DNA of 64,000 bases from Chrysophaeum taylorii (taxonomy: Eukaryota > Sar > Pelagophyceae > Pelagomonadales > Pelagomonadaceae), in assembly GCA_029834535.1 (NCBI GenBank), contig JAQMWT010000407.1, positions 124,001-188,000 on the forward strand. The letters are read 5' to 3'. Made by a program: the position numbers and the translations under genes. Positions within the stretch are counted from its first letter, which is position 1, and each line of letters starts with the position of its first letter. Below are positions 2,449-32,755 of the stretch, piece after piece. Under the pieces are notes generated by a model. The model saw nothing but the letters and a program-made list of their open reading frames with translations, did no database searches and had not been told where the DNA came from.

Positions 2449-2483
<35 letters not shown>

Positions 2484-2511: not shown

Positions 2512-2688
2512 CCATGAGAAGAAGAATTTCTGCTTTACAACTTTTCACATTTCAAGTTTCATTTCATTCACTTTTTCTCTGGTCGCCAAAAAAAAATGAT
2601 CGGAGATAGATATACCGAAAGATATTATGTTGTTGTTGGCGAGTCAAACACGAAACGAACTTCAAAAACCCATCCAAAAGAGAAGCAG

Positions 2689-4254
2689 ATGGCCGAGGCG
2701 GAGCTGCGGTCGTGCTGGGAGCGGAAGGAGTGTCGTCCGGAGCGTATTCCAAACCCGAGCACCTTCAAATTGCCGGCGCTCGGCAGACGAAACGCGGGGA
2801 CGGGGTTGCTGTGCAAGGCGATGGCAATCTACAAGACGAAATGGTACGAGCGCACGATAAAAGTCCTGGAGGAGTCGGTCGCGAGGTACAACAAGTGTGC
2901 CCTCGCATATTTTTACATGGGCGTGAGCTCGTTTAAGGCGGATTTCCCGGTCGATCAGCGCCTCGATTATTACAGAAAGTGTGTCGAGCTCGATCCCGGC
3001 CACGCCGACGCCCGGTACAATTTGGGCTGCTTGCTGCACGACACGGAGGAGGCCGAGGAACACTACCGCGCGGCGATCGCGGCCAACGTCAACCACTCGG
3101 ACGCGCACCTGAACCTCGCTCTGTTGCTCGATCGCCGCGGCGACGAGTCCGGAGCCAGAGCAGAGTTTGGGGCGTCGATCGAGACCGCCGATCTCCCCGA
3201 CATCGAGCCCGACCCCCCGACCTTCTCCTCCGCCTCGAGGGGCTCCAAGGGCTCGTGGGGCGATCGTCCCAAGCCTCCGCAAACCAAGCAGATTCAGCAG
3301 CAGCCACCACCACCCGAGAAAGAAGAGCCTTCTTCTTCTTTTTCTTTGGAAAAAGAGCAGCCCAAGCCACCTCAGCAGCCAAAGCCCTCGAGGACGGCCG
3401 AATCGGCGCGGCCCAACCGCTCGAAGACTCCCTCGCTCGCCGATAAGCCCGAGCAGCGGCCAAAGAGCGCGAGGCGGAGTCAACAACGGTCGATAGACTC
3501 GTTCCCCGCCAAAACGGAGGCCCCGAAAAAAGGAGTTGACGCAGTCCAAACGGAGCGGCTGCCGCCGGTCGCCGGCGCCGAGCAGAAAAAGGAGGCGAAA
3601 AAAGCGGAGACGCGGCGCAAGCACCGGTCGATGAGCGACTTTATCGAGGAGTCTAACGGGAACGCGGCTCAGCGGTCGCACCGCGTCACCTTCCTGCTCA
3701 ACAAGCATCTCGAAGAAGAAGAAGAAGAAGACGTCGGAAGCGACGACGCGACGAGCATTTTGGTTCGCGCGAAACTCCACGAGGACGACGAGTGCCGCGC
3801 GTTTTTGTCTGCGAAGCACGAGGACCCCGAGGAAGCAGGCTACAAAGCCGCAGTTTCGGCCGAGCCGACGAGCGGCGCCGCGAGAGTCAACTACGGTTCA
3901 TGGCTCTATACGCGGAAACTCGACTACGACGCCGCCGAGCGCGAGTACCGCGCGGCCGTCTCGTGTGACCCCGACTGCGTCGAGGCCCACTACAACCTGG
4001 CGGTCATCCTCGACACGGTGCGAAAGGACTACGCCGCGGCCGAAGAGGAGTATAAACAATGCGTTCGCCTCGACCCGTCGCACGTCGCCGCGCGCAACAA
4101 TTACGCCGTCTTGCTCGAGGAGGTCCACAAGGACTTTGGCCGCGCTGCCGCGCAGTACAAGGCCGCGATGGAGGCAGATCCCTCGGACCCGGACATCCGG
4201 ACCAATTATAACACCTGTCGTCAAAAGACGCGCCGCAAGTCCGCCACTAGCTAG
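2689..4254 (+). CDS. Tetratricopeptide-repeat protein with disordered linker
   Basis: This is a 521-residue protein from the ATG that opens MAEAELRSCWERKE. An in-frame ATG at 2596 would add 31 residues of low-information sequence, so the internal start is preferred. Two TPR blocks are visible. The N-terminal block (YFYMGVSSFKA..., YRKCVELDPGHADARYNLG, YRAAIAANVNHSDAHLNLA) and the C-terminal block (YRAAVSCDPDCVEAHYNLA, YKQCVRLDPSHVAARNNYA, YKAAMEADPSDPDIRTNY) show the W/LG/Y/A/P spacing of 34-residue repeats. Between them lie some 200 residues rich in Pro, Gln, Lys and Ser, probably disordered. TPR arrays are protein-protein scaffolds; no partner or compartment can be deduced. No introns are needed. 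The gene is intact. Confidence 0.8.
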   Translation: MAEAELRSCWERKECRPERIPNPSTFKLPALGRRNAGTGLLCKAMAIYKTKWYERTIKVLEESVARYNKCALAYFYMGVSSFKADFPVDQRLDYYRKCVELDPGHADARYNLGCLLHDTEEAEEHYRAAIAANVNHSDAHLNLALLLDRRGDESGARAEFGASIETADLPDIEPDPPTFSSASRGSKGSWGDRPKPPQTKQIQQQPPPPEKEEPSSSFSLEKEQPKPPQQPKPSRTAESARPNRSKTPSLADKPEQRPKSARRSQQRSIDSFPAKTEAPKKGVDAVQTERLPPVAGAEQKKEAKKAETRRKHRSMSDFIEESNGNAAQRSHRVTFLLNKHLEEEEEEDVGSDDATSILVRAKLHEDDECRAFLSAKHEDPEEAGYKAAVSAEPTSGAARVNYGSWLYTRKLDYDAAEREYRAAVSCDPDCVEAHYNLAVILDTVRKDYAAAEEEYKQCVRLDPSHVAARNNYAVLLEEVHKDFGRAAAQYKAAMEADPSDPDIRTNYNTCRQKTRRKSATS

Positions 4255-4677
4255 GTCTCTGTTAATGGCGGCGGTGGTGGTGGTGGTGGTGCCAATTCAA
4301 TAAATCCATGGGCCTGGGCTGGTGGTAGCGAAAGAAGGAAAGTAACGGATTAGAGCAGGCTGACAAGCGCGATCCCCCCCCCCCGCGCTCCTCTGGAAAA
4401 AAAAATCCTCGGAGCAGCGATTCTGCGCACAACACGCCGCCGCCGCCGCCGCCGCCGCCGCCCAAGGAAGTAAGTGCGTAATCGTACGACGACATGTCCG
4501 ATGCCCCTCGCGTAGTATCTATCTATCTTTAGGGGGGGGATTGATTAATAATGGGACGATCCGATGTCCTTGGAACTTTGCGGAACGAGTCCGCCGTCCC
4601 AGGACTTTATCCGATCTACTCAACGCGATCTTCCTCTCGAAAACCACCCGGTTGGGTGGCGCCTCTTCCTGTAGATA
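4255..4677. other. Intergenic stretch between convergent genes
   Basis: There is no supportable gene. It holds simple-sequence runs: a (GGT)n tract near 4270, a poly-C run near 4375, and a (CCG)n tract at about 4437-4461. It separates the 3' ends of the TPR gene and the PX gene. Confidence 0.6.
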
Positions 4678-7329: not shown

Positions 7330-10233
7330 TCACGAAGTGAGGTAACGAGCACGAAGCCGGAGGAAGGAAGGAGCTTCCGTACTGCGGGTGAAAATGTAGC
7401 TAAGATTGTGAAGGCGGGGTATGTGTTTGAGATCAATGATGTGGTTGCGATGATATTCGGCGGTACTGTAAAAGCGAATGTCAATATGGCGGGTGCGCCG
7501 TGTGAGACATTGGAGACGGACTTGGGTGACGGTGGTGCTATTATCAACATACATTGGGACCTTGTGACGAGGGAGATCAAAGTCATCAAAAAGTTTGAGA
7601 AGCCAAGAGAGCTCAGCAGTAGCAGCGTAAAGAGCGATCAATTCAGCTTCAAAAGAAGAGCGAGCAAGTAAGTATTGCGAGCGGGAGCAGTAGGCTATCA
7701 TAGAGCCAGCAAGGAGAAAACAAAAAACCAGTTGTAGAGTGGCGGTCATCAGGGTCGTCGGCCCAGCTGGAGTCGGAATAACCAGAGAGACGAAGGGTAG
7801 AATCGCGACCAAGAATAAGGGCAAGATCCTGAGAACCGTTGAGATAACGCAGAGTGCGGGATAAAGCGTGCCAGTGGGGTTTACCAGGATTGTGGGAAAA
7901 ACGCGCACACTGATTGACGGACCAAGTGATATCAGGGCAAAGTCATGATGGAGATGAAGAGGACACAGCCAACAATACGGCGAAAAGGGATGCGTGCCAT
8001 GAAAATGTAATCTGGAGAACCAGGAGTAGGACAATCAGCCGCAGAAAGATGAAGACCTTTGGGAGCGGGAGTGAGTTCGGGTTTACTGTTGATGAAGCGA
8101 TGTTCGGTAAGGATTTCACGGATAGCATGGGGTTGGTCAAGAGTGAGGGTTCTCCGAGGGCGATCACGCGTAATGCGAAGACCAACGTAAGAGGTGAGAT
8201 CAAGTTCATTGACGTCAGTGAAAGCGCGGAAACGGAGGAAAAAGGCTTGGTAATGGCCAATGCAATGACGAGGGTGCGCCACAAGAAGATCATCAACGAC
8301 CAAAACGAGACGTAGCACGACGGTAGAATTGGGCACGAGCTTGTAGTGGCAAGTGTCACCAGATCCGCGGACGAAGCCACAATCATTGAGAAGGAAGCGT
8401 TCCAAATAAAGCCACCAATTGCGACAAGCTTGTTTGCAACCATACCAAGAGCGACGGAGCTTGTAAACGATTTTGGAACCATCGGTGGGTTGGCGAGGAG
8501 CATAGCCTTCGGGTGGCCAGACATAGATGTCTTCGTCAATGGGAGCTTGAATAAAAGCGGAGCTGACATCCAACTTGTGCAAATCCCAGTCATGAACAGC
8601 GACAAAGGTTAGAAAGAAACGGATCGTGACGATGTTGGCAACCGGTGCGTAGGTGTCATGATAATCAATGCCGTGAACCTGGGTGTAACCGCGGACGACG
8701 AGGCGAGCCTTGTACGATTTGAAGCGGCCAGAGTCATACTTCTTGCGGAGGATCCACTTGAGGGTACAAATGTTGCCAGAAAAAGTCGAAGGAAGGCGAA
8801 CCACATCCCAGCAACCAAGCTGACCAAGAGAGCTGTATTCTTTAGCGATGGCTTGCAACCAGCCAGGACGCTCAGGATTGGTCGGAGCTAAAGCTCCACG
8901 TAAATGGGTGGAAGTAATAGTAGTTTCGTCAAGGTCTGAATACTGAGACATTTCTTCGGAAGCAGAGTAATAAGCGTGTGCATGGGGATCAACGAGGGTG
9001 TTAGCTAAACAAAGGGGAAGGAAGGCATAATGAACTAACAAACGAAAGCTAACAGAAGAGACATACGAAGAGTTACAGGAAAAAACAGAAGCGACAGAGG
9101 AAACAGAATCAACATCGTGACAGGAGGAAACAGAATCGCCCGTAAAAAAGTTTGTTGGTTGTTGTAACGCGCGTTGGTCGACTTTGCGCGGTCGGCCCCG
9201 TCTGGCGCGACGTAATGGTGCACGTTTCGTATTGTCCGGTGACAGTGTATTCAGTGACGGTTGAGTTGTTTCAGGGGTGATCAGTCCCGATAAGGCCGGC
9301 TCCGGAGCATCAAAAACAGACGACATGGGCGCGACGGCGGAAGATAAACGAGGGTCGTAATAAAATAAGTCAGGAAAACGAGAATCCACTAGAGACGGAG
9401 GAAGGGGTTGAGAGGACAGTGACTTACGCAGAGCGAAATTTTCGTCAAAAACAACATCAATCGAGGTGTGGATGACAGGACCTGTGGGGCGTTGAAGCAA
9501 TATGCGATATCCAGGGCCTGCAGAGGGATACCCAATGAAGATACCGGTTATAGCTTTGGTAGGCCATTTGTCGCCAGTAAGAATTGCAGCAGGACAGCCC
9601 CAAACACGAAGAAAATCGACACGAGGGAGAGTTTCATGTAGCATTTCATATGGCGTCATATATCCAGGATTAGAGGCATTTGGCATACGCTCAGAAATGA
9701 AGTCAGCCGTTTCCATGGCCCAACGCCAAAAATCAGGTGGACGGTGCGCATGTACCAAAAGAGTGCGAGTAATATCAGCAGTTGCGCGATGAGAAACTGC
9801 AGAAGGTTTCGAATTGTCCCATAAGAGAGCGGTCACGATCGGTGTAGATGAGGGCAATGCGATATCCGAATGGGCGAACCACGGTAGACAGAAAAAGTTC
9901 GAGTTGACGAGCGTTCGTAAGGGCATCGTGTCGTGGAGCAAAGTAACGCGTGCGGCGGCGCGTATGATCATCGACAAACGCGAGGATCGCGCGATCTTGA
10001 TATATGAAGGATGGGACGCCGGCAAACATGAGATCGGCGTGGATAATAAGGTAGGGCGCAACGGCACGTGGACGAGACAAAGGCTCGGAGGAAGGAGGCG
10101 AAGTGGAAGCGGAAGCATGAGCTTTACGTTGGCCAACATGCGCAGCATGCATTTTACCGAGAGCACAAGCAGGACAAAAAGAAAGCGACGCGAAGCTCGG
10201 GGAAAACGGTGCGCCAACAGCAAGAGAAGACAA
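7330..10233 (-). pseudogene. pol: copia-I pol: integrase, reverse transcriptase, RNase H (frameshifted)
   Basis: Minus-strand frames give the integrase zinc residues CPACALGK, catalytic-core stretches (IHADLMFAG..., LIYTDRD), and the C-terminal integrase region LRVWGCPA...GIFIGYP. The copia reverse transcriptase follows (LKWILRKKYDSGRFKSYKARLV, DVSSAFIQAPI). The usual Tyr-Val-Asp-Asp site reads Val-Val-Asp-Asp, encoded at 8289-8300. Last comes RNase H (SRSQYLLARSSFEAELIAL..., TRRTRHIDIRFY). The domains switch frame near 9.8 kb, near 7.95 kb and again within RNase H, so no single full-length product can be made. Known function of the family is reverse transcription and integration of the element RNA. 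Confidence 0.85.
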
Positions 10234-10242
10234 ACGCCGAAG

Positions 10243-12128
10243 CTAGGGAGGACGATAATGACCAAGACGAGCATGCCAAAGGTCGAAGGTAAGTTGAGTG
10301 CGTTGAGACACAGCGGGAAACGCACAAGGGTCATGGACACGGGGGCAAGAAGAAAATGCCACAAAATGTGAAACGTAGTCCACGTAGGGCGCAGCGGTCG
10401 TATTGCCGATCCAACAGACGATCAAAAGAAGACCACAGCGACGAAGCAGGGGAATAACGTGATGCGTTTGGCGGTGACGTAAAATACGTTGCGGATAAGC
10501 AGGGCCAACGGCCTGAATGGTGTGGCAATCGTAACCAACTTGCTCAAGGGCATGATCCGAAAGAATCCGTTTGTCACCAAGGCCAGGAGAGATGAGGGTA
10601 TGCGGGAACGCGACATGGATACCATGAGGGGCGGAAAGAGTGGGTGCAGGAGAAGGAAGTCCACGATTGTCAAGAGGGCCAATTGAAGGAAACGCTAAGT
10701 GGGCAGTGCCGGAACCAGAAACCAAGCCAGTGCCGAGTGCAGAAGTGATGGAGTGATGCTGAGTATTGTCAAGGTCAGTGAAACCAGTGGCAGAGTTAAA
10801 AAGGTTGACGTTGGCGCCGGTATCATAGACAACGAGACGAAGGTTGGTGCTCTGAAGGTAGTCGCGCTCACGAGCGGTGAGCAAAGCGGTAAGGGCATTG
10901 GTGGAGGAAAGGACTTGATGAATCGAGGGAGATATTGAGAGAAGATGGAAATTGAAAGACGGGTAGGTGGGTGCAGAAAGGGATGGGTCAGGAAGGGTGA
11001 CAGCGGTGGAAGGCGGGACAGAGGGTGTGGTGGAGGGTGGCAACGCAAGGAGCGACGGAGAGGATTGAGATGGAGGCAAGAGTGGAATGGGGGCGGAAAG
11101 GTAGTTGTGGTAGAAGGGTGGATGGGGCCTAGGTGGGTATTGGGGATTGGACCGAGGTGGGTATTGGGAATGTGACCGACGTGGGTATTGGCGTTGATGC
11201 CGAGGGCGGGCGGTGGCTTGTGAGAGCAAATAGCGCTGGCGCTTATGACAATCTTTCTGGTGATGGCCAGGAATACCACAAAAGTGACAAAGATCAGTAT
11301 GGCGTGGGCGCTTGCGATGGAAACCACGTGAAGATGAAGGTGGGTTGCGGAATGATGATCGAAAAGGGGGGCGTGGGCTAGAACGTTGTTGAGAGCGCAA
11401 AGCATTGAAGCGATGAAAGTACTTATCAGAAGGATGGTTGGGACGACCGTAAAAAGTTGGAACGTTCACGATGAGGGGGACTTTCACGGAACGTAGCATG
11501 GACATGCGCAGACTTGGTCTGAAGATAATCAAAAACTTTACTGTGGAGGCGATCAACGAAACCATCATATGTGCGCAATTTAGGATCAAGTGCAATGAGA
11601 TCCTTAGACAAGAGCGAGTCGGGGATTTTCTTTCGTCTGAAGCAATTGCAATGCACTTGAGTCAGGGAAATCTTGATGATGCCGAGCAACTTGAAACACC
11701 AGTGATGAACTTGTCAAGAAAAGACTCAAGTTCATCAATATTGTTGCACACCAAGGAATGCACAGTGAAGCAATTGCAGACTGAGCGACACGATCTCCAT
11801 GACCCATGTAAACATCAGTAATGCGCTTGTAAAGCCGCGTGAAGTTCATATCGCGGTTTTTACGGATATCCGCACGATCAGTATCATGCATTGGTAGCGC
11901 CATGAAGAGTGCACTGTACCAGCGTTGCTGCTTGAGACAAAATTCTTCTTCAGAGCAGCCAGAGGCGGAAATGCTAGTCCAAGTGTCAGTGGTCAAGATA
12001 ATGCGATCACCGGTGGAAATGATCATGTTTTCCAGGCGCCGGGTCCATTGGTGAAAAAGATGTCGCTCACCACTGAAGGCATCGAGTTTTTGCGAAAGCT
12101 TGCTATCCTTAATTTCGATCGAGGACAT
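10243..12128 (-). pseudogene. gag: copia-I gag, zinc knuckle and protease (frameshifted)
   Basis: The probable start is MSSIEIKDSKLSQKLDAF, 115 bp inside the 5' LTR. A Gag region of copia type (FHQWTRRLENMI, YKRITDVYMG) is followed by frame changes near 11.65 and 11.5 kb. A classical knuckle CHFCGIPGHHQKDC (C-x2-C-x4-H-x4-C) follows, then a Pro/Ser/Tyr-rich spacer, then a retropepsin site VVYDTGANVNLF. The GAG-pre-integrase motif LWHARLGH closes the frame. A host role is not expected. The spacer is very C-rich, which by itself keeps frames open on this strand. Confidence 0.82.
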
Positions 12129-21368: not shown

Positions 21369-21393
21369 GTTTTCTTCGTTTTACAAGTGGTGG

Positions 21394-21698
21394 TGTGGCG
21401 GCAACTACCGCCTCCTAAGGCTTACCCCTCTTCTAGGGAAACCCTTATTAGGGGCACCCTACTCCGTTCTGATGATGTCAGTTTTCTCTATGACATCATG
21501 TTCCCTGATTTCTGTGATTCAAGTGTTCTTAATCATAAAGCAACAGCCGATCCTCAAGTTGTGAGGATCAGTTGTTTGTGGTTGTGTGGCGGGAGAACGG
21601 CCATCCTCGTCCAGTGACTCCACCAAGGGCACGGACGCGGGCGGCGAGCCAGGATTCGAAGGCACGTCAGGTAGCCCCTAAATTCTCCTTACGCCGCA
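21394..21698 (+). repeat. gypsy-I 5' LTR (305 bp)
   Basis: It begins TGTGGCGG and ends CGCA. The interior contains a palindromic pair around GATGATGTCAG and TATGACATCATG, and an ATAAAG-rich stretch. Compared with the 3' LTR it lacks a 9-bp stretch and has a few substitutions and an extra ATC. Confidence 0.92.
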
Positions 21699-21700
21699 GG

Positions 21701-21718
21701 TGGTGGAGGATATGAGAT
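21701..21718 (+). other. Candidate tRNA primer-binding site of gypsy-I
   Basis: Two bases inside the 5' LTR the sequence reads TGGTGGAGGATATGAGAT. It begins TGG (complement of tRNA CCA-3'), and the complement runs into GAATC, a T-loop-like stretch. Gypsy-II has TGGTGGAGGAATACGAGA at the same place. The tRNA is not identified. Confidence 0.4.
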
Positions 21719-22066
21719 TCGAGCGACTATATCTGTCGCAGGGAACGAGTGCATCTTGCATTCTCTACACGGTCCGGACAAGCCGCGCGCGCCCTGATCA
21801 AGCGCACCGACAAGGAATTCCAGAGGGACCACTGCCGTGGGAAAGTTCCCCGGCCGGTTACGTTGGTCGTCGGAAGTGACGACGCGCGATTCGGTGCTAG
21901 CCGACGCGCAACCCGGGTACCGCTGCCGCAGGCGAGCGGAGTGAGATCGCAACTCACTGAGGCATTGATTGCCGGGCAGAGACGAATTCTGCCGCCCACC
22001 GGACTGATAGATTTGTCGGTGGGAGACGCACGCAACGACGATATTACGCGTGTCGTGGACGAGTAG

Positions 22067-24700
22067 ATGTTCCAGAGTCGAAGGAGCACGAGAACGACGA
22101 CGACTCAACCATTTTGGACCCGCTCTGATCTCGGCCGATTAGAACGAGCCAGAGCCGATATGAAAGACGATGATGCTGCCGACGAGCAGACGCGATATGA
22201 CGAACCGCCAAGCCGCCAGGATGAGACGAGCGAGGGGGACGATGATGATGATACTGATTATGATGATGAGGAAGAAGAGCTGAACTACAACGGCGATGAA
22301 CTGCCGAGGGCGCCGCCGGCGAGACAACCGGCAGCCCATCCAGAACGTGCGCGAGATGATGAACCACCGAACGTTGCAAAGATTTACAAAGCCCATTTAC
22401 GCGAGATACGCCGAGAAAATAAGCGCGCACAAGAAATCCTCACCCGGCTGATAGAAGAAGAGATGCGGCGTGAATGGCTACACCAGAAGAAGATAAAAAT
22501 AATGCAAGAGCAAATGCGGCACGAACACGCTCGATTAGATAAAATACACGAGCAAGTACGATGGTTGACCCGCGAGAGGAATGAGTTGCGTACGCCGAGT
22601 CGCTCGAGGCGAGCGAGCAGTCCGGAGGGAGAATTCCGACCCTCGGAGGTACCGCCGCCCACGCGAACGCGAGCGAAAGTTAGGAAGCCGCGCGACGACG
22701 ACGACGAGTCGTCCGAGATGACCGAAACGTCGTTAAACTACGAGCAAGAGCGATCCAGGTCGAAGGAGCTCACCCAAACCAAAATCCCCACAGAATCGGA
22801 GAATCTGACCGAAACGTCGTTAAACTACGGGCCGAGGCCGACAACCGCTTCTGACCCGGTGTCACCGTTGGTGGCACGATATGATTTGTCGTCAGCTGAC
22901 ACAACCCTCGGTTTTGACGACGCGCCGGAGTTATGTGTGAATCCGATTTACGAGCCCCGTGCAGCCGATGACGCCCAAAGGAATGGACCCGCCGCTGCTA
23001 CGCTCGATGCTATGAGTCTACCTCCGGACATTCAAGTGGATGACACTTCGTCTCCACGATCGATCGACGATGCGTCGCAGAGGATTATCTCGAATGATAA
23101 GCGCGCACCTGTTTACACGCCCATCGAACGTCTCGTGCCCTTTGGTGGCCATTTCTTGACAGATACGACGTTGGGGACGACGCCTTCTTCTTTTGCAGGG
23201 CCCCCCGACGAACCGACTGCAGACGTTTTTGCAGATGTTTTATTCCCTTTGACGATGGCAGACATTTCGTGTGCCGACACTTTTAGTGACGAGGCGATTG
23301 CCGATATTCTAAGCGATGGAGTGGATGATAGGCCGAGTGAAACGGCCGAGAAAATGAATACGAAAGCGGAAGAGGTGAAGAATCTTATAACGCATGAACT
23401 GCCTTTGGAGCTCAGTGAAAGCCCTGGCGTATTACTCACGAACGAAGAGTTCAAAGATTTTCAGCCTGCATATGATGATGGCTATGTGATAAAGAAAGAT
23501 CCCGAACATACCATGAGGGATGAGTATAGCTGCCGCCCGGAATCGAATTTGGATGGGACGATCAGCATGGATAAGAGGAAGATGAGCGTACCGACGATAT
23601 TGATACGACCTCACTGTTTCCTGAGGAAGAAACCGCCAGAGCGGAAAGAAGTGCAATTCCGACCCCGAGGCATGGATTTATTCGCCAACGGAGAGTTAAT
23701 TTACGTTTGGTCGGAGTTTTGTCAAGAAGACGACGCATGTGTCGATGTTCCGATAGACGAGACGATTGAGACAGTTCGGATAGGCTTGGGAGCACCAGTC
23801 GCCTACAGGGACGATCCAGAGGTACTAGGACCTGCCGAACTGACGCCAGAGAGAGACAAAGATAACAAGAGCCCCAGTCGAAGTTCGCGCCGGCACAGAC
23901 GACGCCGATCGCGCGACGACGAATACGACGGAGGCCGACACCAATATAATTTGGGTTTTTTGAGCGCAACGCTCGCGTTTACGACCCCTTGCGGTCAACA
24001 GTTACCATTAGGAGTGATGGTGTACCCGAACACGGACACCCGCACCGACGACGCAGCCGACGCCCTTGCCGCGGTCGCATTCGAAGATCTTGCTCGCCCG
24101 CCGATGGACGAGCCACCCAACGACGTGCTGACCAATCGTCGGTCTTTGGCACAGATTTATGAGCAGATGTCGAGCGATGAACTCGAAGATTCGAGCGATG
24201 AACTCGAAGCTCCACGGTACTGGGAAGGCGATTCAGATTGGGAAGATGAAGAAGCTACGCCTTGTGAACCAGTGTCCGCGATACCGTTATTTGACGAGTC
24301 GTCCACGGACGACCCACCGTTTATTTTTGACGAGGAAGCCCTCGATGCCATCGGCTTATCTTTGGACCCTCCAGGGACTACCTTTGGCGACCAAACTGGC
24401 TGTGAGCCAGACATGGATTTCTGCAGTGATAGCTCGTGTGATCATTCGACGAACGAGACGATGACCAGCGCGAGTAATGCAGACGACGATCTTACGATAG
24501 AGTTGACGTCGGGGACGACGCCATCTTTTCCTGCGGACCCCCCCGAAACGGTTTCGGTTATTGCGGATCGAGCCACGGACACGCCGCCGGAAGAAAAGGA
24601 TAGATTTAAGAAGAAGATTAGCAGCGTTCTCGAGTGGGACGAAGAAGAGCCGACGTGGAACCTGCAGGATTGGTGGACGAGAACTCGGACTTCTTGCTAA
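22067..24700 (+). CDS. gypsy-I ORF1: Gag-like protein lacking capsid and zinc finger
   Basis: This is an 877-residue, strongly acidic product. Residues about 100-185 form a coiled coil with the conserved tail RNELRTPSRSRRASSP, shared with gypsy-II. In gypsy-II and gypsy-III a capsid-like region and a CxxCGFF zinc finger follow. Here they are missing, and the coiled coil runs straight into duplicated short motifs (TETSLNY twice) and two copies of the acidic linker (compare LDAMSLPPDIQVDD with LDAIGLSLDPPGTT). A basic Ser/Arg stretch and the VMVYPNTDT region follow as in the relatives. The frame is open throughout, which suggests recombination rather than decay. It probably needs a helper Gag. 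Confidence 0.7.
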   Translation: MFQSRRSTRTTTTQPFWTRSDLGRLERARADMKDDDAADEQTRYDEPPSRQDETSEGDDDDDTDYDDEEEELNYNGDELPRAPPARQPAAHPERARDDEPPNVAKIYKAHLREIRRENKRAQEILTRLIEEEMRREWLHQKKIKIMQEQMRHEHARLDKIHEQVRWLTRERNELRTPSRSRRASSPEGEFRPSEVPPPTRTRAKVRKPRDDDDESSEMTETSLNYEQERSRSKELTQTKIPTESENLTETSLNYGPRPTTASDPVSPLVARYDLSSADTTLGFDDAPELCVNPIYEPRAADDAQRNGPAAATLDAMSLPPDIQVDDTSSPRSIDDASQRIISNDKRAPVYTPIERLVPFGGHFLTDTTLGTTPSSFAGPPDEPTADVFADVLFPLTMADISCADTFSDEAIADILSDGVDDRPSETAEKMNTKAEEVKNLITHELPLELSESPGVLLTNEEFKDFQPAYDDGYVIKKDPEHTMRDEYSCRPESNLDGTISMDKRKMSVPTILIRPHCFLRKKPPERKEVQFRPRGMDLFANGELIYVWSEFCQEDDACVDVPIDETIETVRIGLGAPVAYRDDPEVLGPAELTPERDKDNKSPSRSSRRHRRRRSRDDEYDGGRHQYNLGFLSATLAFTTPCGQQLPLGVMVYPNTDTRTDDAADALAAVAFEDLARPPMDEPPNDVLTNRRSLAQIYEQMSSDELEDSSDELEAPRYWEGDSDWEDEEATPCEPVSAIPLFDESSTDDPPFIFDEEALDAIGLSLDPPGTTFGDQTGCEPDMDFCSDSSCDHSTNETMTSASNADDDLTIELTSGTTPSFPADPPETVSVIADRATDTPPEEKDRFKKKISSVLEWDEEEPTWNLQDWWTRTRTSC

Positions 24701-25821
24701 AGAAGCCACCAGAACAACCGCTCAGCTACGTACACGAAGCTGCAGCCGACACGGAACCGATCGTCGATGATGGTGATGATCAACCGATGACGAATGAATT
24801 TACAGATGCATTCTGGAAAGACGAAATGAATGATTTATGGGAGGGGTCCTTTGCTTCCAAGAACTACGAAGACCAGGATCCCCGACCAGCGCTGATTCCC
24901 TCCGAGATTGTCTTGGAGGAAGAGCGGGAGCAGCCAGATAAAGAGGCTGCCGCGAGCGTTACGTCGATGACGCCAACAACAGATGATACGAGAGCTCAAG
25001 CCGCGGTATCGATGCCCAACCCCGGAGATGAGCGAGTCAGAGCCCGATGTGCTCACACTTCGTTGACGCCGCGAGACGGCAAGACGTTCGAAGATGATTT
25101 GGTTACCCTCCGTTGTTTAGATACGGGTACTCTTACGTTTATGGCCTGTCACATCTACAGGAATCGTGACGGACCGAAATTCTCGACGACCATCGGTGTC
25201 GATGGAATGGCAGATGTCTCTTATATTTGCCGAGAAATGGTCAGAAAGTTGGCCAAAGATCAGTTGGTTTTCGATGAAGGCGAACTTCCGATTAAGCGCA
25301 AGCTGTACGGATCAGGGTTGAATACGACGACGATCTATCGTTGGATCGCGATTCGGGTCGCCCTCGCCGACAACATCGCTGCCCCCATTGTCGCTATTGT
25401 AGCCGATACGAACTATCTGTTCCTGTTGGGAGGGCGCGATATACGAGTCTTAGGAGCCGTCGTGGACTACCCCCACGATCGAATCTGCCAAGTCGTCTAC
25501 GGGCGCAAGAAGATTAAGTTCAAGGATGAACGAATCGATGCACCAATCGTGACCTTTCGATCTATTTACGATCGAGATCCGATAACCGTGCCGATTTACA
25601 ATCATCAACACGATGCCTTTCGGAAGAGTCTCGACTTGGTCAAGGCTCGAGTTTACGCTCGTTTGAGCACGATTAAAGATCTCCGAAGCCCGCCGCCGGA
25701 ACGTACGGTAGCCTTGGCTACGCGGGGACATGCTACGACCAAACTCTCCCCAGCTCCGGGAGAAGGCGCGCGAGAAGTAGTGGCCTACGCTGCGCGCACG
25801 CTTCAGATCGAGCCCGGTTAA
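24634..25821 (+). CDS. gypsy-I ORF2: retropepsin-like region
   Basis: An open frame of about 395 codons overlaps the end of ORF1 by 67 nt in the -1 frame. Its first codon in the overlap is not ATG, so expression by -1 frameshifting is plausible. The C-terminal half looks like a retroviral-type aspartic protease: TTIGVDGMADVSYI in place of the usual Asp-Thr/Ser-Gly-Ala motif, and a flap/end region YLFLLGGRDIRVLGAVVDYP. The key Asp-Gly order is altered (DGMA), so activity is uncertain. The frame ends with TAA. The same frame then continues with protein-like sequence (MGQVFVATFAENEQLGVVEG) up to the frame change that leads into ORF3. ORF2 and ORF3 were therefore probably one Pol frame. Confidence 0.6.
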   Translation: MGRRRADVEPAGLVDENSDFLLKKPPEQPLSYVHEAAADTEPIVDDGDDQPMTNEFTDAFWKDEMNDLWEGSFASKNYEDQDPRPALIPSEIVLEEEREQPDKEAAASVTSMTPTTDDTRAQAAVSMPNPGDERVRARCAHTSLTPRDGKTFEDDLVTLRCLDTGTLTFMACHIYRNRDGPKFSTTIGVDGMADVSYICREMVRKLAKDQLVFDEGELPIKRKLYGSGLNTTTIYRWIAIRVALADNIAAPIVAIVADTNYLFLLGGRDIRVLGAVVDYPHDRICQVVYGRKKIKFKDERIDAPIVTFRSIYDRDPITVPIYNHQHDAFRKSLDLVKARVYARLSTIKDLRSPPPERTVALATRGHATTKLSPAPGEGAREVVAYAARTLQIEPG

Positions 25822-25922
25822 ACTTACAATTTACCGGTTATTTTGTCGAAACCTATGGAAATGGGACAGGTTTTCGTCGCTACTTTTGCTGAGAACGAGC
25901 AGCTGGGAGTTGTCGAAGGAAT

Positions 25923-28900
25923 GTGTTCTTCTTCGAAGAGCACGACCGGTCCGCTGCTCGGGTTGCGGTTACTGCCGCGGAAGAAGTGCCGACGCTCGTC
26001 ACTCAAGGCGAAGTCCTCGCCATGGGCGATATCGTTAGGTATGAAGATGAGTTGAACGTCTCTACGATCAACGAACTTACGAAAGAATGTGAAGAAGGAT
26101 ACGACAAGGGGAGCCTTTCTTTCACCGTTTCCGTCGCTAGTCATTTGACGCATTGCGACGCGTCTCCCCCGCCGATGTTGCTAAGCACGGCGCAGAAGGA
26201 CGCTACGACCGCTATGGCGGACAAGTCCTCCCTCAAACGACCCGAAGGCGACGACGATTTTGCTCGAAGGTCGGAAGAAGATGAAAAGAAGTGCCGCGAG
26301 ATCACCGAAGCGGAGATCCGCCGCCGATACGAAAAGGTTCAATGGCTTCCAATCACTTATCGCAAGGTGGTGATGCTGTTCAGTGGAGCCGGAGGCAGTA
26401 CTTTAGGTCTCCAACGAGCCAACGAATTGTGTGGGACGTCGTTTCGAGTCGTGCTAGCACTCGATGCGTCGGACACCGCCAACCAGATCCACCATAAGAA
26501 TTTTCCGAACATTCCTGTGGTGCAGCACACACTGTGTGGTCGCTATGTTACAACCTTACGGTTGATTGAATCTTATTTACCCTACGCGGAATGGTCGTCG
26601 TCGATGTGTGTCGCGTCGCCACCCTGCGTACACTCCGCTCTGTGCAACTTGACTTCCAGAGATGTCGGGAAGGGAGTCACCGCTACCCACTGGACGATGA
26701 AATTATGCAAGATGGCTGGTTTCTTCATGTGGTTGATAGAGCAGGAGGCCTCGATTATTTCTTACGTTGCACGTTTGCACCCTTACGTGTACGTCGTCAA
26801 TTTTTACGACATAACGCCCAGTTTGATGAGCTGTCGCGTGCGATTGTTGGTTTCCAGCCATCCGCTCCATTTGCGCGCAGTTCCAATGACTTGCAAGAAT
26901 ATGCAACAAGAGTTCGCCGCTGCGCTTGGCTACGCCGACGAACGACATTTACTTCAGATGAACAATTTAGGATCATCACGAGCCGCGACAGACGCAGCTT
27001 ATACCGTTACGCGTGTCCCGCTTCGTGTAGGACCGCACCGTTCCGATTACAGATCTTTGAATCTGAAAATGATTTCGGAGTTGCTGACAATGCCCCTTGA
27101 TTTTGATTGGGCCGGCTTCTCCAGGACGACCTCGTTGAAACACTTGGCGTCCGTCGTGCCACCAGACACGATGACCTTATTAGTACTCGATCTGCGCAAC
27201 TCTGTGACCAAGGATTTTCACCTGAGCGGCGAAGCTTTGCCGTCAGCGTTGAGTCCTGCAGACTTCGATGTGCCATGGAAAGATGCGCCGCGCGATGCGG
27301 AGTGTGCACCGCTGCCGCAAACTCCCGAGCATGTCAAGGATAACGAAGCAATGAAAGTTCAAATTCCTACGAAGGAAGAAGTTGACAAGGTTGTGCAGGA
27401 GCTGGGAATTCCTGACAATCCGCACTTAGATGACGAGGCGAAACTGATGCTCCGTCACTGTGTGCAATATTCTTGGGCCTTTTTCGACCCGATTATGAGA
27501 CCTGTGGACTCGCCTCCTGTGTCTCTACGATTCAAAGACGCGAATCCGCGACCGATAAAGATGACGCCCTACCGATTGACGCCTGCGAAGCTCGATTGCC
27601 TCCGCAAGCAGATCAGCGAGTGGTGCCGGGATGGAGTCATTCGTCCGGCCAACTCACCTTGGGGCTTTCCTGTGTTGATGCTTCCGAAGAAAGGAGCTGA
27701 GATTGGAACGTCAAACGCGTTCCGTGCTGCAGTTGACTTACGTCAGCTCAACGATCAATTGGTCAATGACAGTTGGCCGAACATTCGACAAGATGATGCT
27801 TTAGCCTTTCTCGCGATGAGACGATGGCGGACATGCATTGATATTAGATGGGGATACCACAACCTTCGTCTGGATCCGGCAGCGCAGAACGCTGTCACGA
27901 TGGTTAGCCCACTTGGCGCTCACAGTTTCTTGCGATTACCTCTAGGTGTGAAGACGGTCGGAGCTCTTTTCTGCAAGCAAATGGCGAGCGACCTTTCGAA
28001 ATGGATGTATCAAGACTTGGTTGCGTTTGTTGACGATATTATGATGGGATCCGACGATCTTCATCGACATTTACAAGTTTTGATCGAAGTGATGTGTCAT
28101 TTGGCACAGAGAGGGTACAGCGGTCGAACCGCGAAGTTCCACCTTCTCAAGGATGATATAGAATTTCTGGGACACATTTCTACCCCAGAAGGCTTGAAGC
28201 CGAATCCGAAGACGCTGGAAGCACTGCAGAAGATGCCGATTCCAGGTACTTTACCGAATACTTTCCCGAAGACCCAGATACGCTCTTTCATCGGCATGAG
28301 TAATTACTGCCGGCGATATGTGAAGGGCTACTCGAAGATCGTGGAACCGCTGAGACGATTATGCCTCGAAGGTGTAAAGTTCGAGTGGACGCCCGAGTGT
28401 CAGAAAGCTTGGGATACGATTATTGAAGCTTTGGTTGATTCCCGTGGAGTCTACCACCCCGATTATGATCTGCAGATCCGATCCGATGCTTCCAAGGATG
28501 GACTTGGAGCATATCTCTTCCAGATTGTCGAAGTCAAGGACGATGCTGGAAGAGTGACTCGAGAAGAACGAGTGATTGAATATTGGAGCCGAGCTGTGCC
28601 GAAGGAGATGCGCAATTACGAGCCCCGTCGGCTAGAGCTGCTGGCAGTTATACTTTCTCTAGAGCACTTTCGAGCCTACATCGAAGGGCACAGGACTGTT
28701 TTGGAGACCGATCACCGAAATTTGACGTTTTTACGTAAGGCGACGCACTCGTCTGGCCAGCTTGCTCGTTGGGCGATGCGCCTCGCTAATTTTGACCCTG
28801 AACTTGGTTACAAGCCGGGAATGTCACTGGGAATGAGTATCCCTGACTGTCTCTCCCGCAACCCGATAGATCATGTCATCGAGACTGACGAGTTTGGAGA

Positions 28901-30881
28901 ACCTTTGAACCACGCTTATTTAGTGTTCCAAGAGCTCCCCCGACCTGTTGATGGCCGAGGAGTTCCCGTCTCCGGCTGCCACTTCATAATGTCGTTTATT
29001 ACGACCGAACTGCCGGAAGACGAAGACGAAGACCCTGAAAAGGATCCGATGAAATTGGCTACGTCTCACGCTACGAGACAACGTCGGAAGAACCGTGCGC
29101 GCGATGAGCCACAGATCTTCAAGGACGCAGCCGCTTACAAAGATTATATCGATAAGATACCCGATAATATGACGCTCGCTGAGATCGCACGTGATCAAGA
29201 ATCTGATGCTACTTTCGAGGATATTCGCTACCGAATGGCCCAAGGTCAGGCGCCGCGACGTTCCCGAGCGAACGAACGATTCGAAGTCGTTAAAGATGTT
29301 CTTTATCGCATTTCTGCTGATTCGCACCCGATGATTGTTGCACCTGCTACGTTGCGCAAGCGCATTATTCGACTCTACCATGACACTCCGGTTAACGGTG
29401 GTCATATGGGACGTCACAGTACCGTCCAGGCTATCCAAGAACGATTTTGGTGGCCTCACATGTCGAACGAAGTTGGAGTCTTCATTGCTGAATGCTTAGT
29501 TTGCCAGAAAGCTCGTACGCCTGAGCCGAAACGAGCTGGACTCTTGCAGCAGCCCGTCTACGATGGTGATGGTGCTGTTCTTTGCATGGATTTATTTGGA
29601 CCCTTGCCCAGCGCTGGTCCCGAGACGTATCTTCTAGTATTTTTTGATCCGTTCTCGCATTTCTTGATTCTGGATGTTTTGAACGATAAGACTGCTGAGT
29701 CTGTCCTCGAGTCTTTTGTCATTAACATCCTCCTCGAGGGCTACTTGCCCCAGATGATTCGTACCGACAACGGTAAAGAGTTCGTGAACAAGTTGATGCG
29801 CGAGTTTTGCCATCTCTTTAACACCCGATACCAAACTACGATTCCTTATCATGCCCAGTCGAACCCGGCTGAGCGTAAAAACCGATTTATCAAGGCCTTC
29901 CTCCGTGCTTGCCTTCAGGGCCGGAACATCACGGATTGGCCTGACTTTGCTCATTATATTGCGTTTTGTTATAACCGCAAGTTTATTCCAGGCACGCAGA
30001 TTTCTCCCTTTATGCTGCGCCTGAACCGTCAGCCGATGCTGCCGACCGACTACACGCTTATGGACTTTGATGCGCGATTATTGCCGAAGACTCGCTCTGA
30101 TGCAGTCGCCGAAACTCGTGAACGATTGAAGTATTATACGAAAATCGTCCGCGAGGCTCGTGATAAAGCTTTGAAGAAACAACGATTGGCCTACAATGGC
30201 GATCATGTTGATGTTGAATACAAGGAAGGATCGCACGTTTTGCTCTACATTCCTTTCCTTCAGAACAAACTTCGACCGGAATGGCGAGGACCGTTTATTA
30301 TCAAGGAACGCCTTTCCCCGGTCACCTATAGGATTGAGTCTCTCGACTCTCCGCCCGAAGAACGACGTGTTCATGTTAGTCAGATCACGCCTGTGATGGT
30401 ACCTCCGATCGTTGATCAAGCCATCCGCAAACCCGAAGAAACCTTCCGTGATGATTATCAGCACGGTAAGTTTGTTGTTTTCCGGATTCCTGACCGGAAG
30501 CGCTCTGATTGGCGCAAGAAGATTTATGTTGCTGAAGTTTATGAGCCTTACGATTACCGAAATGATCGTGTTGCTCTACGTTTCTATTCCGATTTGGGTC
30601 CGAACGATGATGTGGCTTATTTCAAGCCGACCTCTCACGTTTCGCACCGCAAACTCAAGCCCGAGTTCAAGGACGTTGAAGGTCGAAGTTTCACCGACAA
30701 ATCCAGAATTTCCTCCAACACAACTCCTTGTGTCACGGATTTCGCTCCGCACGAGATTGATGTGTTGATCCCCAAGTTTACTTTACGCTGTGGCCGAGTT
30801 CCTGAACCGGTCGTCGCCCGCGTTTACCAGAAGATTCGTTCACGAGATGCTCGTAAGGCGAAGCCGCGCTCCTCGCGCTAG
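25923..30881 (+). CDS. pol: gypsy-I ORF3: Pol polyprotein with C5-cytosine methyltransferase, RT, RNase H, integrase
   Basis: A 1652-codon frame (first codon GTG; upstream stop at 25890; first ATG at 26022). Residues 148-425 form a C5-methyltransferase: motif I LFSGAGG (152-158), motif II LALDAS (178-183), motif IV ASPPC with catalytic Cys235, motif VI-like LIEQEA (Glu273), motif VIII CRVRLLV (304-310), motif IX SELLTMPLDFDWAG (385-398), motif X-like HLASVVPP (407-414). Reverse transcriptase spans about 540-760, with FVDD at 702-705. RNase H has Asp855, Glu905, Asp930. Integrase has His1153, His1161, Cys1191, Cys1194 and the DDE triad Asp1223, Asp1282, Glu1317. A GPY/F module lies near 1453, and an uncharacterised C-terminal domain spans 1513-1630. 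The frame is unbroken and all catalytic residues checked are present. Confidence 0.92.
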   Translation: MFFFEEHDRSAARVAVTAAEEVPTLVTQGEVLAMGDIVRYEDELNVSTINELTKECEEGYDKGSLSFTVSVASHLTHCDASPPPMLLSTAQKDATTAMADKSSLKRPEGDDDFARRSEEDEKKCREITEAEIRRRYEKVQWLPITYRKVVMLFSGAGGSTLGLQRANELCGTSFRVVLALDASDTANQIHHKNFPNIPVVQHTLCGRYVTTLRLIESYLPYAEWSSSMCVASPPCVHSALCNLTSRDVGKGVTATHWTMKLCKMAGFFMWLIEQEASIISYVARLHPYVYVVNFYDITPSLMSCRVRLLVSSHPLHLRAVPMTCKNMQQEFAAALGYADERHLLQMNNLGSSRAATDAAYTVTRVPLRVGPHRSDYRSLNLKMISELLTMPLDFDWAGFSRTTSLKHLASVVPPDTMTLLVLDLRNSVTKDFHLSGEALPSALSPADFDVPWKDAPRDAECAPLPQTPEHVKDNEAMKVQIPTKEEVDKVVQELGIPDNPHLDDEAKLMLRHCVQYSWAFFDPIMRPVDSPPVSLRFKDANPRPIKMTPYRLTPAKLDCLRKQISEWCRDGVIRPANSPWGFPVLMLPKKGAEIGTSNAFRAAVDLRQLNDQLVNDSWPNIRQDDALAFLAMRRWRTCIDIRWGYHNLRLDPAAQNAVTMVSPLGAHSFLRLPLGVKTVGALFCKQMASDLSKWMYQDLVAFVDDIMMGSDDLHRHLQVLIEVMCHLAQRGYSGRTAKFHLLKDDIEFLGHISTPEGLKPNPKTLEALQKMPIPGTLPNTFPKTQIRSFIGMSNYCRRYVKGYSKIVEPLRRLCLEGVKFEWTPECQKAWDTIIEALVDSRGVYHPDYDLQIRSDASKDGLGAYLFQIVEVKDDAGRVTREERVIEYWSRAVPKEMRNYEPRRLELLAVILSLEHFRAYIEGHRTVLETDHRNLTFLRKATHSSGQLARWAMRLANFDPELGYKPGMSLGMSIPDCLSRNPIDHVIETDEFGEPLNHAYLVFQELPRPVDGRGVPVSGCHFIMSFITTELPEDEDEDPEKDPMKLATSHATRQRRKNRARDEPQIFKDAAAYKDYIDKIPDNMTLAEIARDQESDATFEDIRYRMAQGQAPRRSRANERFEVVKDVLYRISADSHPMIVAPATLRKRIIRLYHDTPVNGGHMGRHSTVQAIQERFWWPHMSNEVGVFIAECLVCQKARTPEPKRAGLLQQPVYDGDGAVLCMDLFGPLPSAGPETYLLVFFDPFSHFLILDVLNDKTAESVLESFVINILLEGYLPQMIRTDNGKEFVNKLMREFCHLFNTRYQTTIPYHAQSNPAERKNRFIKAFLRACLQGRNITDWPDFAHYIAFCYNRKFIPGTQISPFMLRLNRQPMLPTDYTLMDFDARLLPKTRSDAVAETRERLKYYTKIVREARDKALKKQRLAYNGDHVDVEYKEGSHVLLYIPFLQNKLRPEWRGPFIIKERLSPVTYRIESLDSPPEERRVHVSQITPVMVPPIVDQAIRKPEETFRDDYQHGKFVVFRIPDRKRSDWRKKIYVAEVYEPYDYRNDRVALRFYSDLGPNDDVAYFKPTSHVSHRKLKPEFKDVEGRSFTDKSRISSNTTPCVTDFAPHEIDVLIPKFTLRCGRVPEPVVARVYQKIRSRDARKAKPRSSR

Positions 30882-30921
30882 CACCTCCCTGGGGCAGCTC
30901 GAATTCTTACCAGGGGAGTCC

Positions 30922-31231
30922 TGTGGCGGCAACTACCGCCTCCTAAGGCTTACCCCTCTTCTAGGGCCCCCCTTATCAGGGGCACCCTACTCCGTTCTGA
31001 TGATGTCAGTTTTCTCTATGACATGTTCCCTGATTTCTGTGATTCAAGTGTTCTCAATCATAAAGCACAGCCGATCCTCAAGTTGTGAGGACCAGGCACG
31101 GAAGTTGTTTGTGGTTGTGTGGCGGGAGAACGGCCATCCTCGTCCAGTGACTCCACCAAGGGCACGGACGCGAGCGGCGAGCCAGGATTCGAAGGCACGC
31201 CAGGTAGCCCCTAAATTCTCCTTGTGCCACA
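30922..31231 (+). repeat. gypsy-I 3' LTR (310 bp)
   Basis: It is preceded by a short purine tract (CAGGGGAGTCC), the expected plus-strand primer position, and followed by the target duplicate GGTGG. It carries the GGCACGGAAG stretch that the 5' LTR has lost. Confidence 0.92.
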
Positions 31232-31236
31232 GGTGG

Positions 31237-32755
31237 TGCTGCTGTTCTGGGGCACCCGGTGTCAACTTGGCCGTTGCCAAGCGCGGAGTAGTAAAACCGG
31301 TAGACGGTTCGAGGCGGCATTTGCACGCTTGTAGTTGGTCTCGTATGGCGTTCACAGAAAGAAAGAGTATCAGCCACCTTTCAGCACAGTATGCTGTTAG
31401 CACGTCCTTGAGCACTCGCGAGTCCATAACGCACACACCGTGCGAGGGAGGGACCCGTTGTGCTTGAATAATCTCGATAAATAAATAAATAAATACCAGC
31501 GAAGAACGCAGGGCCTTCGCGTCGGTCTCGCGCCAAATACGACGCGGAAATTATGTCAACGAATAGCATTGATCATCATCGAGGAGAATGGTTTCGTTCC
31601 GGTGGAATCATCATTCGTGTTGACTCGCTGTACGCCGACCCTTTTCTCATCGAAACGCGCGTGACCACCTCGCTCAGGTACGTCGTGGAGCCCTATCGCT
31701 GCCGCCGATCATGTTCAAAATTGCGTTCTCGCTTTGGCTTGTTTTCCAACAAAAAAAACACGCGCAACATACGCCTTGGCTGCTGCGATCAAGATTCAAA
31801 TGATACGGAGGGTCTCAGCGTTTGCCGCTTCGCTACGCGAGTCAATACCACCAAAGACCGCGAGAACGGAAGCGGCGAAAAATGCCGTCCGTTGTCGTCG
31901 TCGCGCTGCTCCTATGCGTCCGCTATAATCGACGCGGTTTGGGAGACGACGCCGCCGCCGCAATGTGAAATAAAGCGTCGTGCTCATTCCGCTTGGACGA
32001 TGCTCCTCAGGAGTAACTTTGTTTTTGGTGGGACTCCGCATCGCGCGCGACATGGCCGGTGCCGTAGCCGCTCGGGATGTCTGAGCGCCGCGAGGATCCA
32101 CGTTGTGAGCGTGCCTCATCTAGTCGTAGTTTCGTGGTGGCGGAGAGTCCAGGTGGTGTGACGAGGACTTCCATGTAGGCGAATGACGATGCGGATGGTG
32201 ATCGACCGGAGGCAGCGTCACTGAAACGCCCGCCGCTTTTTGCACGAACTCGTGCAGCTGGTACGTCCTGCGCCGGCCGGCCTCTTGCATGTCCATCGCC
32301 GCCACGTGCTTTCAGCAGCAGCATCAGCACCACCACCTTAAGCTGCCGATAGTGAACCCGCCAGGGGGGGGGTCCATCTTCTATCTGGAAGCGCTGGGTC
32401 CGACTGCGGCCACCCACACGATGATGATGATGATTCTCTTATGACAATAGACTAAGGTGTGCACACTGCAATATACTAGAATCGGCGCACACAAGGCAGC
32501 AGCAGCAGCAGCACCAGCAAGAAACCCGGAGGTGAGGTGAGGTGAGGTGAGGTGAGGTGAGGTGAAGTGATAAGTGCTGTTTCAAAAGCATGCGTTGAGT
32601 TTGTATACACACTTGTAACGAAAGTGAGAGACCGCCAGAGGCCAACGCCGCGGCGGCAGCATGCGTTGAGCTTGTAAAGACGCTTGTCTTGAACGAACGA
32701 ACGAACGAACGAACGACCAGAGGAGGTCAACGTCGAAGATTAGAAAGCGTCGTCG
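31237..32755. other. Intergenic stretch with short repeats
   Basis: No gene can be supported. Open frames up to about 200 codons on both strands lack recognisable domains. Structure seen: (GGTGA)7 at about 32531-32568, (GAAC)n at about 32693-32716, and a 71-bp direct duplication whose copies start GCATGCGTTGAG (about 32589 and 32660). It lies downstream of gypsy-I and beyond the 3' end of the ABC transporter gene. Confidence 0.5.

Follow-up and report, generated by a model that had tools for sequence, protein, structure and literature searches.

The 64-kb window studied here, a stretch of contig JAQMWT010000407.1 from the 70.8-Mb genome of the pelagophyte alga Chrysophaeum taylorii (697 contigs), harbors a 9.8-kb long terminal repeat (LTR) retrotransposon of the Ty3/gypsy type at positions 21394-31231 of the forward strand. 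Within its Pol frame, upstream of the reverse transcriptase (RT), a first-pass annotation had recognized a C5-cytosine methyltransferase (MTase) domain, and a match to the Pfam profile PF00145, a profile-profile alignment (hhalign) from motif I to motif X and a shuffle test bear out this assignment. The motifs that it had named indeed lie where it had put them, in order and in a single open reading frame (ORF 25893-30878), and about 67 residues separate motifs VIII and IX, close to its estimate of ca. 70; the catalytic Cys, which it had numbered 235, is residue 245 of the stop-to-stop frame. In window positions, the domain is composed as follows:

26340..27200, forward strand: C5-cytosine MTase domain, limits approximate (PF00145 and hhalign), upstream of the RT
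26376..26396, forward strand: motif I, LFSGAGG (Pfam and hhalign)
26454-26471, forward strand: motif II-like LALDAS, read in the Pol frame
26613..26627, forward strand: motif IV, ASPPC with the catalytic Cys, then V instead of Q (alignment)
26736..26753, forward strand: motif VI equivalent, IEQEAS, with E-Q for E-N, in register with ENV (hhalign)
26832..26852, forward strand: motif VIII, CRVRLLV (SRVR or SRTR in relatives), both Arg in register (hhalign)
27054-27116, forward strand: motif IX-like SLNLKMISELLTMPLDFDWAG (hhalign)
27141-27164, forward strand: motif X-like HLASVVPP (hhalign); motifs IX and X together span 27054..27164

Scanned alone, the domain yields the significant PF00145 match that the annotation had anticipated (25.1 bits, E 1.4e-5, over the cut-off of 22), and a scan of the whole 1662-aa frame gives 19.7 bits (E 6.4e-4), under the same cut-off. 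The profile also matches all eight members of alignment A1 (best E 4.3e-6; the match of the member shown spans motifs I-III only), a close copy of the element (L016; 22.6 bits) and a diverged copy (L069; 29.0 bits, E 9.4e-7, in two stretches), whose C-terminal piece alone meets profile positions 255-310, i.e., motifs IX-X, with E 0.043. The partner in our hhalign comparisons was an alignment of ten phage Dcm proteins with the host's DNMT2. A shallow gypsy profile of 30 close-copy rows (five of 35 rows had been removed for their stops) aligns with this partner over motifs I-III (92.0%, E 6.5e-7). With close copies alone, local hhalign places motifs IX-X of the C-terminal part correctly (2 of 150 shuffles as high); the global mode found no match for this part (33 of 150 shuffles as high), the middle part with motifs IV-VIII did not stand out from its shuffles (41 of 200 as high), and MAFFT gave no support for the register (80 of 200). 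The question was settled by deepening the alignment with a diverged clade, which supersedes these failed shallow tests. Taken from 40 MTase rows, 11 rows (five of clade A, which includes the window copy, three of clade B and three of the diverged clade C) align over residues 42-315 with Dcm/DNMT2 from motif I to motif X (hhalign 96.3%, E 1.7e-9), in which PPC pairs with PCQ, EQE with ENV, RxR with the arginines of motif VIII, and IX-X with its counterpart. Shuffled columns never scored as high over the whole length (0/100) or over the part after motif III (0/200); for the middle alone, 4 of 200 did, and the best match there is just five columns long and puts ASPPC on the catalytic Cys of Dcm. 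We take these alignments to show that the Pol domain is a C5-MTase homologue over its whole length.

The motif IV Cys, the motif VI Glu and the motif VIII Arg are thus present in order and in register with the C5-MTase superfamily, and motifs IX and X are found C-terminal to the target-recognition region. Both ASPPC and WLIEQEAS are invariant in all 35 A, B and intermediate copies, as is the first Arg of motif VIII (35/35), the second being a stop in one decayed copy (L051), and C130, E168, Q169, E170, R200 and R202 do not vary in the 11 rows across clades A, B and C. What differs are the neighbors of these residues, with PCV or PCI for PCQ, EQE for ENV, and CRxR or SRxR for QRxR.

When the PDB was searched with the single domain sequence, the sole matches up to E 1 were DNMT2/tRNA C38 MTases at non-significant E 0.086 and 0.097, and a deeper profile ranked the cytosine-specific MTase 3g7u first (E 0.8) and had DNMT2 at E 2, none of them significant; no DNMT3 chain was among the matches up to E 1 (domain) or E 5 (deeper profile). 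The likeness to DNMT2/tRNA C38 MTases is confined to motifs I-III without any match beyond, and the host's own DNMT2 (L001, E 3.9e-39 to 1g55) is a gene separate from the element's MTase. Compared by hhalign with a single row of host DNMT5, the shallow gypsy alignment scored near 0% and the Dcm alignment 97.9%, the first of these comparisons being shallow on both sides. In a search of limited sensitivity against a set of 5.8 billion proteins, the gypsy domain, the Pol frame limited to this domain and the copia MTase described below had no match at E 0.01; IMG/VR scans with A1, A2 and A3 gave no relative, and a GTDB scan with the host DNMT2 gave no match. A 22-row tree (with the gypsy and copia clades starred) sets the gypsy clade beside DNMT2 and one phage Dcm (84/82), a placement that we do not use in view of the long branches. 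On present sequence comparisons, the gypsy MTase is an orphan type with altered motifs (PCV/I, EQE and C/S-RxR).

Around this domain, the element is built as follows:

21394..21698, forward strand: 5' LTR, 305 bp, TG...CA, direct repeat of the 3' LTR
22067..24697, forward strand: ORF1, an open frame of 877 aa, Gag-like from its position only
24622..25818, forward strand: ORF2, 399 aa, probable protease region with VDGMADVS at 25198-25221
25893..30878, forward strand: Pol frame, 1662 aa from stop to stop, MTase - RT - RNase H - H2C2 - integrase core (Pfam)
27249..27284, forward strand: junction where a linker of ~115 aa is lost in the window copy (compared with 29/29 fetched close copies)
28026-28043, forward strand: RT motif FVDDIM, read in the Pol frame
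30922..31231, forward strand: 3' LTR, 310 bp, TG...CA

The Pol frame exceeds the Pfam cut-offs for PF00078, PF17917, PF17919, PF17921, PF00665 and PF22938, with RVT_1, RNase H, the H2C2 zinc finger and rve in Ty3/gypsy order, and this RT - RNase H - integrase order, together with the two LTRs, bears out the annotation's assignment to Ty3/gypsy. The LTRs are an ordinary pair; aligned with each other (21394-21705 vs 30922-31238), they differ by 11 mismatches and 13 gap positions in 321 alignment columns. On both outer flanks stands GGTGG (21389-21393 and 31232-31236), a possible 5-bp target duplication that is uncertain because the internal sequence of the element likewise starts with GGTGGTG. 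A Pfam scan of ORF1 and ORF2 gave no match. The VDGMADVS of ORF2 resembles what we take to be the active site of retropepsins; such protease-like sites read DGMA or DGGA in gypsy and copia elements of this genome (window 25198-25221, P0002 near residue 82, and L064), where the usual form is presumably DSGA or DTGA. The window copy lacks ca. 340 nt (~115 aa) between MTase and RT that all 29 fetched close copies (L010-L038) hold, and its three frames (22067-24697, 24622-25818 and 25893-30878) are discontinuous, in contrast to frames of 3063 and 3067 aa in two of 111 related rows; the lost linker and the broken frames mark it as a decayed copy.

These 111 rows, which are 79-100% identical and represent the clade of the window copy, are the minimum found by a genome search with the domain (111 of 1470 candidates scored); 89 are without in-frame stops and 22 have them (hand count). 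The corresponding search for the diverged clade C gave at least 151 matches (144 of 846 candidates scored). Such counts are of rows and not of insertions because a single copy can be split over several rows and certain contigs are mirrored in others: in the pairs C10/C297 and C25/C521, rows of equal or near-equal score recur at mirrored positions, and these are probably duplicated (haplotype) contigs that inflate the copy numbers. In the two rows with frames of 3063 and 3067 aa, the MTase is part of one long polyprotein, since nearby downstream RNase H rows on the same contig list equal frame lengths. From 150 rows of gypsy RNase H, six places were fetched (L064-L069), of which L067 and L068 are B-like and L065, L066 and L069 form clade C, with RTs 58-60% and MTases 40-42% identical to the window copy and the motifs FAGAGGS[ST]LG, ASPPC, LEQEPS, SRTRLL and LGSMVPP. 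Its presence in clades with RTs this far apart shows, by these comparisons, that the MTase is old in this element lineage.

Selection was assessed on 35 copies among the 111 rows (30 of clade A including the window copy, three of clade B and two intermediates), leaving out codon pairs of fewer than 30 codons (three of 90 linker pairs are therefore missing). The median A-B ratio of nonsynonymous to synonymous substitutions (dN/dS) is 0.065 for the MTase and 0.041 for the RT (90 pairs each), vs 0.169 for the 66 residues before the domain (90 pairs) and 0.238 for the 113-residue linker after it (87 pairs), all rough values because the dS of MTase (1.78) and RT (1.35) is near saturation and that of the linker (0.70) is low. 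Median dN rises from 0.051 for the RT over 0.116 for the MTase and 0.173 for the linker to 0.340 for the pre-domain, and, inside the domain, from 0.051 for VI-VIII, its lowest block, over 0.085 for I-III and 0.097 for IV to 0.121 for the target-recognition region. The clade C pair L065-L066 gives a dN of 0.116 and a dS of 1.51 for the MTase (ratio 0.077) and 0.067/1.32 for the RT. As these figures indicate, the MTase domain is under purifying selection. The closest clade A pair has an MTase dS of 0.004, so that either the family moved recently or this pair is a duplicated contig stretch.

A Ty1/copia family of the same genome carries an MTase of its own. A PF00145 search of the genome, which read single exons and did not bridge introns (123 of 474 candidates scored), gave at least 57 rows, headed by DNMT2 in row 1 and DNMT5 in row 2, and all 19 rows checked among the other 55 (the places of L003-L008, L040-L044 and L070-L077) belong to this one family. 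The 1952-aa frame of its member L040 (3097-8952, forward strand) matches PF00145 at 349-475 and RVT_2 (the Ty1/copia RT) at 1686-1933, and weakly, with 17.2 bits and thus under the cut-off, an integrase core at 1016-1110. PF00145 matches the copia MTase in 4/4 cases (best E 3.9e-10), and the genome holds 115 matches to it; LPCQ and ENV are kept, and motif I, as we presume these motifs are to be named, is poor and degenerate. Its median dN/dS is 0.169 (55 pairs from 11 places, after removal of L003, L004 and L007 as the same places as L045, L039 and L046), that of the copia RT 0.190 (10 of 15 pairs kept, each of at least 60 codons). The PDB gave no match to the copia MTase up to E 1. Between the gypsy and copia MTases, no homology was detectable by hhalign (0.9%, and 0.1% with the deeper alignment, where the two profiles have Neff 1.6 and 1.2), and because each of them aligns with Dcm (gypsy 92.0% and 96.3%, copia 94.3%), two separate captures are the simplest reading of these comparisons, though an old common origin may be hidden by profiles this shallow.

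Other copia sequences were seen along the way. At L068, an RT of the MTase-bearing copia (231-1190, reverse strand) adjoins a truncated gypsy MTase (2242-4401, forward strand), apparently the result of an insertion of one MTase-bearing element into another. Within the window, a copia RT at 62788-63312 (reverse strand) shares 37% identity with the RT of the MTase-bearing family; ca. 5 kb upstream on the same strand, at 57277-58164, lies a remote match to the copia MTase (24%, E 1.6e-4) that has lost PCQ and ENV and is perhaps a dead MTase relic. A further copia element at 7935-10421 (reverse strand; RVT_2 and retroviral SH3) matched the MTase-bearing copia by its RT alone.

For the host itself, the PF00145 rows checked include DNMT2 and DNMT5 (E 3e-143 to 7r76) and no DNMT1, DNMT3 or other DNA-type host enzyme, within the scope of the exon-by-exon search and the 19 rows checked singly. 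The Rubisco large subunit on contig C697 matches 7yk5 (E 1.7e-299), 5mz2 and others over its whole length, which we take to be diatom and red-algal enzymes, and we read it as red-type. Together with DNMT5, such a Rubisco fits an alga whose plastid is of the red lineage, as in ochrophytes or haptophytes. DNMT5 has been found in pelagophytes and diatoms, according to a passage of PMC9998398, and is described in part of PMC10538959 as a maintenance enzyme, with Cryptococcus neoformans, which has DNMT5, being without de novo activity.

Taking all of this together, we lean toward the view that the window holds a decayed copy of a high-copy Ty3/gypsy family whose Pol-borne MTase, placed between the protease region and the RT, methylates the element's own complementary DNA (cDNA), an activity that we infer. 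The domain would be made and packaged together with the RT, and it would then be released by the protease or work as the N-terminal part of the RT; methylation of cytosines in fresh element cDNA would take place inside the particle or ahead of integration, new copies would therefore arrive methylated already, and DNMT5, the sole DNA-type DNMT detected in the host, could copy the marks at each division. Candidate benefits would be shelter from a host attack on unmethylated DNA, a self-limited copy number or a choice of target sites; those that the annotation had suggested (hiding from excision or mutation, tolerance of host silencing and shaping of host methylation) are likewise candidates. Methylation of cDNA seems the simplest role because the domain and the RT are neighbors in one polyprotein and the element's cDNA is made before integration. 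The same role has been proposed for a DIRS element, whose isolated SymbioDIRS-Dnmt3 domains methylated CpG when they were expressed in yeast (PMC5890265). The LTRs, in which the promoter is expected, are poor in CpG, with observed/expected ratios of 0.75 for the 5' LTR (164 of 2000 shuffles as low) and 0.64 for the 3' LTR (19 of 2000). Beside a CpG-rich interior, they give a weak hint of self-methylation; their low CpG content could stem from decay of methylated CpG or from plain composition.

Several observations weigh against self-methylation of this kind. The element as a whole is not depleted of CpG (observed/expected 1.30, compared with 1.23 for the window and 1.34 for the element's interior). 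In the MTase region of 28 copies (L021 and L022 were left out of these comparisons), there is no excess at CpG of single-copy transitions (0.083 vs 0.085 per site, Fisher p 1.0) or of shared ones (12/181 vs 23/354, p 1.0); for MTase and RT together, shared transitions lean toward CpG short of significance (27/327 vs 39/728, p 0.075), and two of the 11 mismatches between the LTRs are transitions at a CpG. Activity is uncertain because the residues beside the catalytic ones are changed (PCQ, ENV and QRxR), and the nearest published gypsy case, KnitGypsy-Dnmt3, was inactive in yeast, a result that its authors deem inconclusive (PMC5890265). Inside the domain, the IX-X block has the highest dN (0.221), above that of the linker, whose high dN/dS in turn stems partly from its low dS (0.70 vs 1.78). 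Nor is the domain kept by every copy, since one of the six fetched places, L064, is a clade-C-like gypsy with an RT and no MTase match; with the MTase-flanking text standing close together, it is a putative MTase-less deletion derivative.

Among other explanations, the domain could be an active C5-MTase with RNA as its substrate (the element's genomic RNA or a primer tRNA), as in DNMT2, which we consider unlikely. The two non-significant DNMT2/tRNA C38 matches (E 0.086 and 0.097) as the sole single-sequence PDB matches up to E 1, a coding interior without CpG decay and the suggestion of RNA methylation by de Mendoza et al. for a long interspersed nuclear element (LINE) (PMC5890265) are in line with it, yet the likeness to DNMT2 spans motifs I-III only, the deeper profile puts 3g7u (E 0.8) before DNMT2 (E 2) with neither significant, and the place beside the RT in Pol fits cDNA as well. 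Rather improbable, too, is a catalytically dead domain kept for binding of S-adenosylmethionine or nucleic acid, for interference with host DNMT5 or for integration targeting. The altered neighbors in PCQ, ENV and QRxR speak for such a domain, but all 11 rows, from clades of ca. 40% identity, retain the catalytic Cys, the Glu of motif VI and the Arg of motif VIII, and dN within the domain is lowest in VI-VIII. A passenger, i.e., an MTase gene that the element took up from its host or from a foreign source and that now drifts, is very hard to credit: stops in the domain of 22/111 rows (hand count) and the MTase-less L064 are what drift would leave, but the dN/dS of 0.065 between A and B (with dS near saturation) and of 0.077 for L065-L066 already contradict it. 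Least credible of all is a chance likeness in an unrelated Pol spacer that the annotation over-read, which the shallow tests taken alone (middle part, global mode and MAFFT register) would allow and which we reject in view of the PF00145 scores over the cut-off for the window domain, in 8/8 aligned members and in L069 (29.0 bits, E 9.4e-7), and of a whole-length profile alignment that 0/100 shuffles equaled.

That the only de novo cytosine methylation of this alga comes from its retrotransposons, with elements laying the first marks and host DNMT5 copying them, is a speculation to which we give little credence; it is suggested by a host with DNMT5 and DNMT2 on one side and two LTR superfamilies with hundreds of rows of two not detectably related MTases on the other, and, if true, parasites would write the methylome that the host maintains. 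With DNMT5 and DNMT2 as the detected host enzymes, the genome is well suited to asking what supplies de novo methylation to lineages dependent on DNMT5. The occurrence of MTases without detectable relationship in two LTR superfamilies of one 71-Mb genome shifts the odds from a stray capture toward a recurrent advantage. For enzyme work, an orphan MTase with EQE instead of ENV is an odd sequence type.

Retrotransposons with C5-MTases, one of them a gypsy, have been known since 2018, when a DNMT3 was described from Klebsormidium, in the Pol of an LTR gypsy, and DNMTs from Symbiodinium, where LINE and DIRS elements carry them (PMC5890265), and the first-pass annotation was right in calling the concept known from dinoflagellates and a charophyte. 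C. taylorii appears to add a lineage beyond these two groups whose retrotransposons took up cytosine methyltransferases; the annotation's guess of a new host lineage is likely correct, short of proof. According to one passage of a 2019 paper, stramenopiles are among the groups with gypsy and DIRS elements that encode Dam and Dcm (PMC6338049), and an earlier stramenopile case is possible because this passage leaves unsaid which enzyme sits in which element. Another passage, citing the 2018 work, mentions DNMT3 in "LTR Copia and DIRS" elements (PMC12344493), which may be a slip because the cited work describes a Gypsy; a C5-MTase in a copia element is thereby mentioned in print, as a DNMT3, and the copia MTase of C. 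taylorii is placed here no further than the PF00145 superfamily.

The closest known system is KnitGypsy-Dnmt3 of Klebsormidium nitens, likewise an LTR gypsy whose Pol frame encloses a C5-MTase under purifying selection and which is present in several copies (PMC5890265). It differs in that its MTase belongs to the DNMT3 family and its repeats are arranged in a DIRS-like manner (PMC5890265), whereas the element described here has an ordinary LTR pair, another host and an MTase without a significant match to any solved chain. SymbioDIRS-Dnmt3 and SymbioLINE-Dnmt share with it the hundreds of retroelement MTases per genome, the SymbioLINE enzyme also forms an orphan clade, and the SymbioDIRS MTase lies in one frame with the RT, as here (PMC5890265). 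These Symbiodinium cases concern DIRS and LINE classes, and Copia elements of Symbiodinium are without DNMTs (PMC5890265), whereas a copia of C. taylorii carries an MTase. As far as the open-licence literature shows, the novelty lies in the host, in the orphan EQE-type MTase, in how deeply this MTase is conserved within a single gypsy lineage, and in its co-occurrence with a second, copia-borne MTase.

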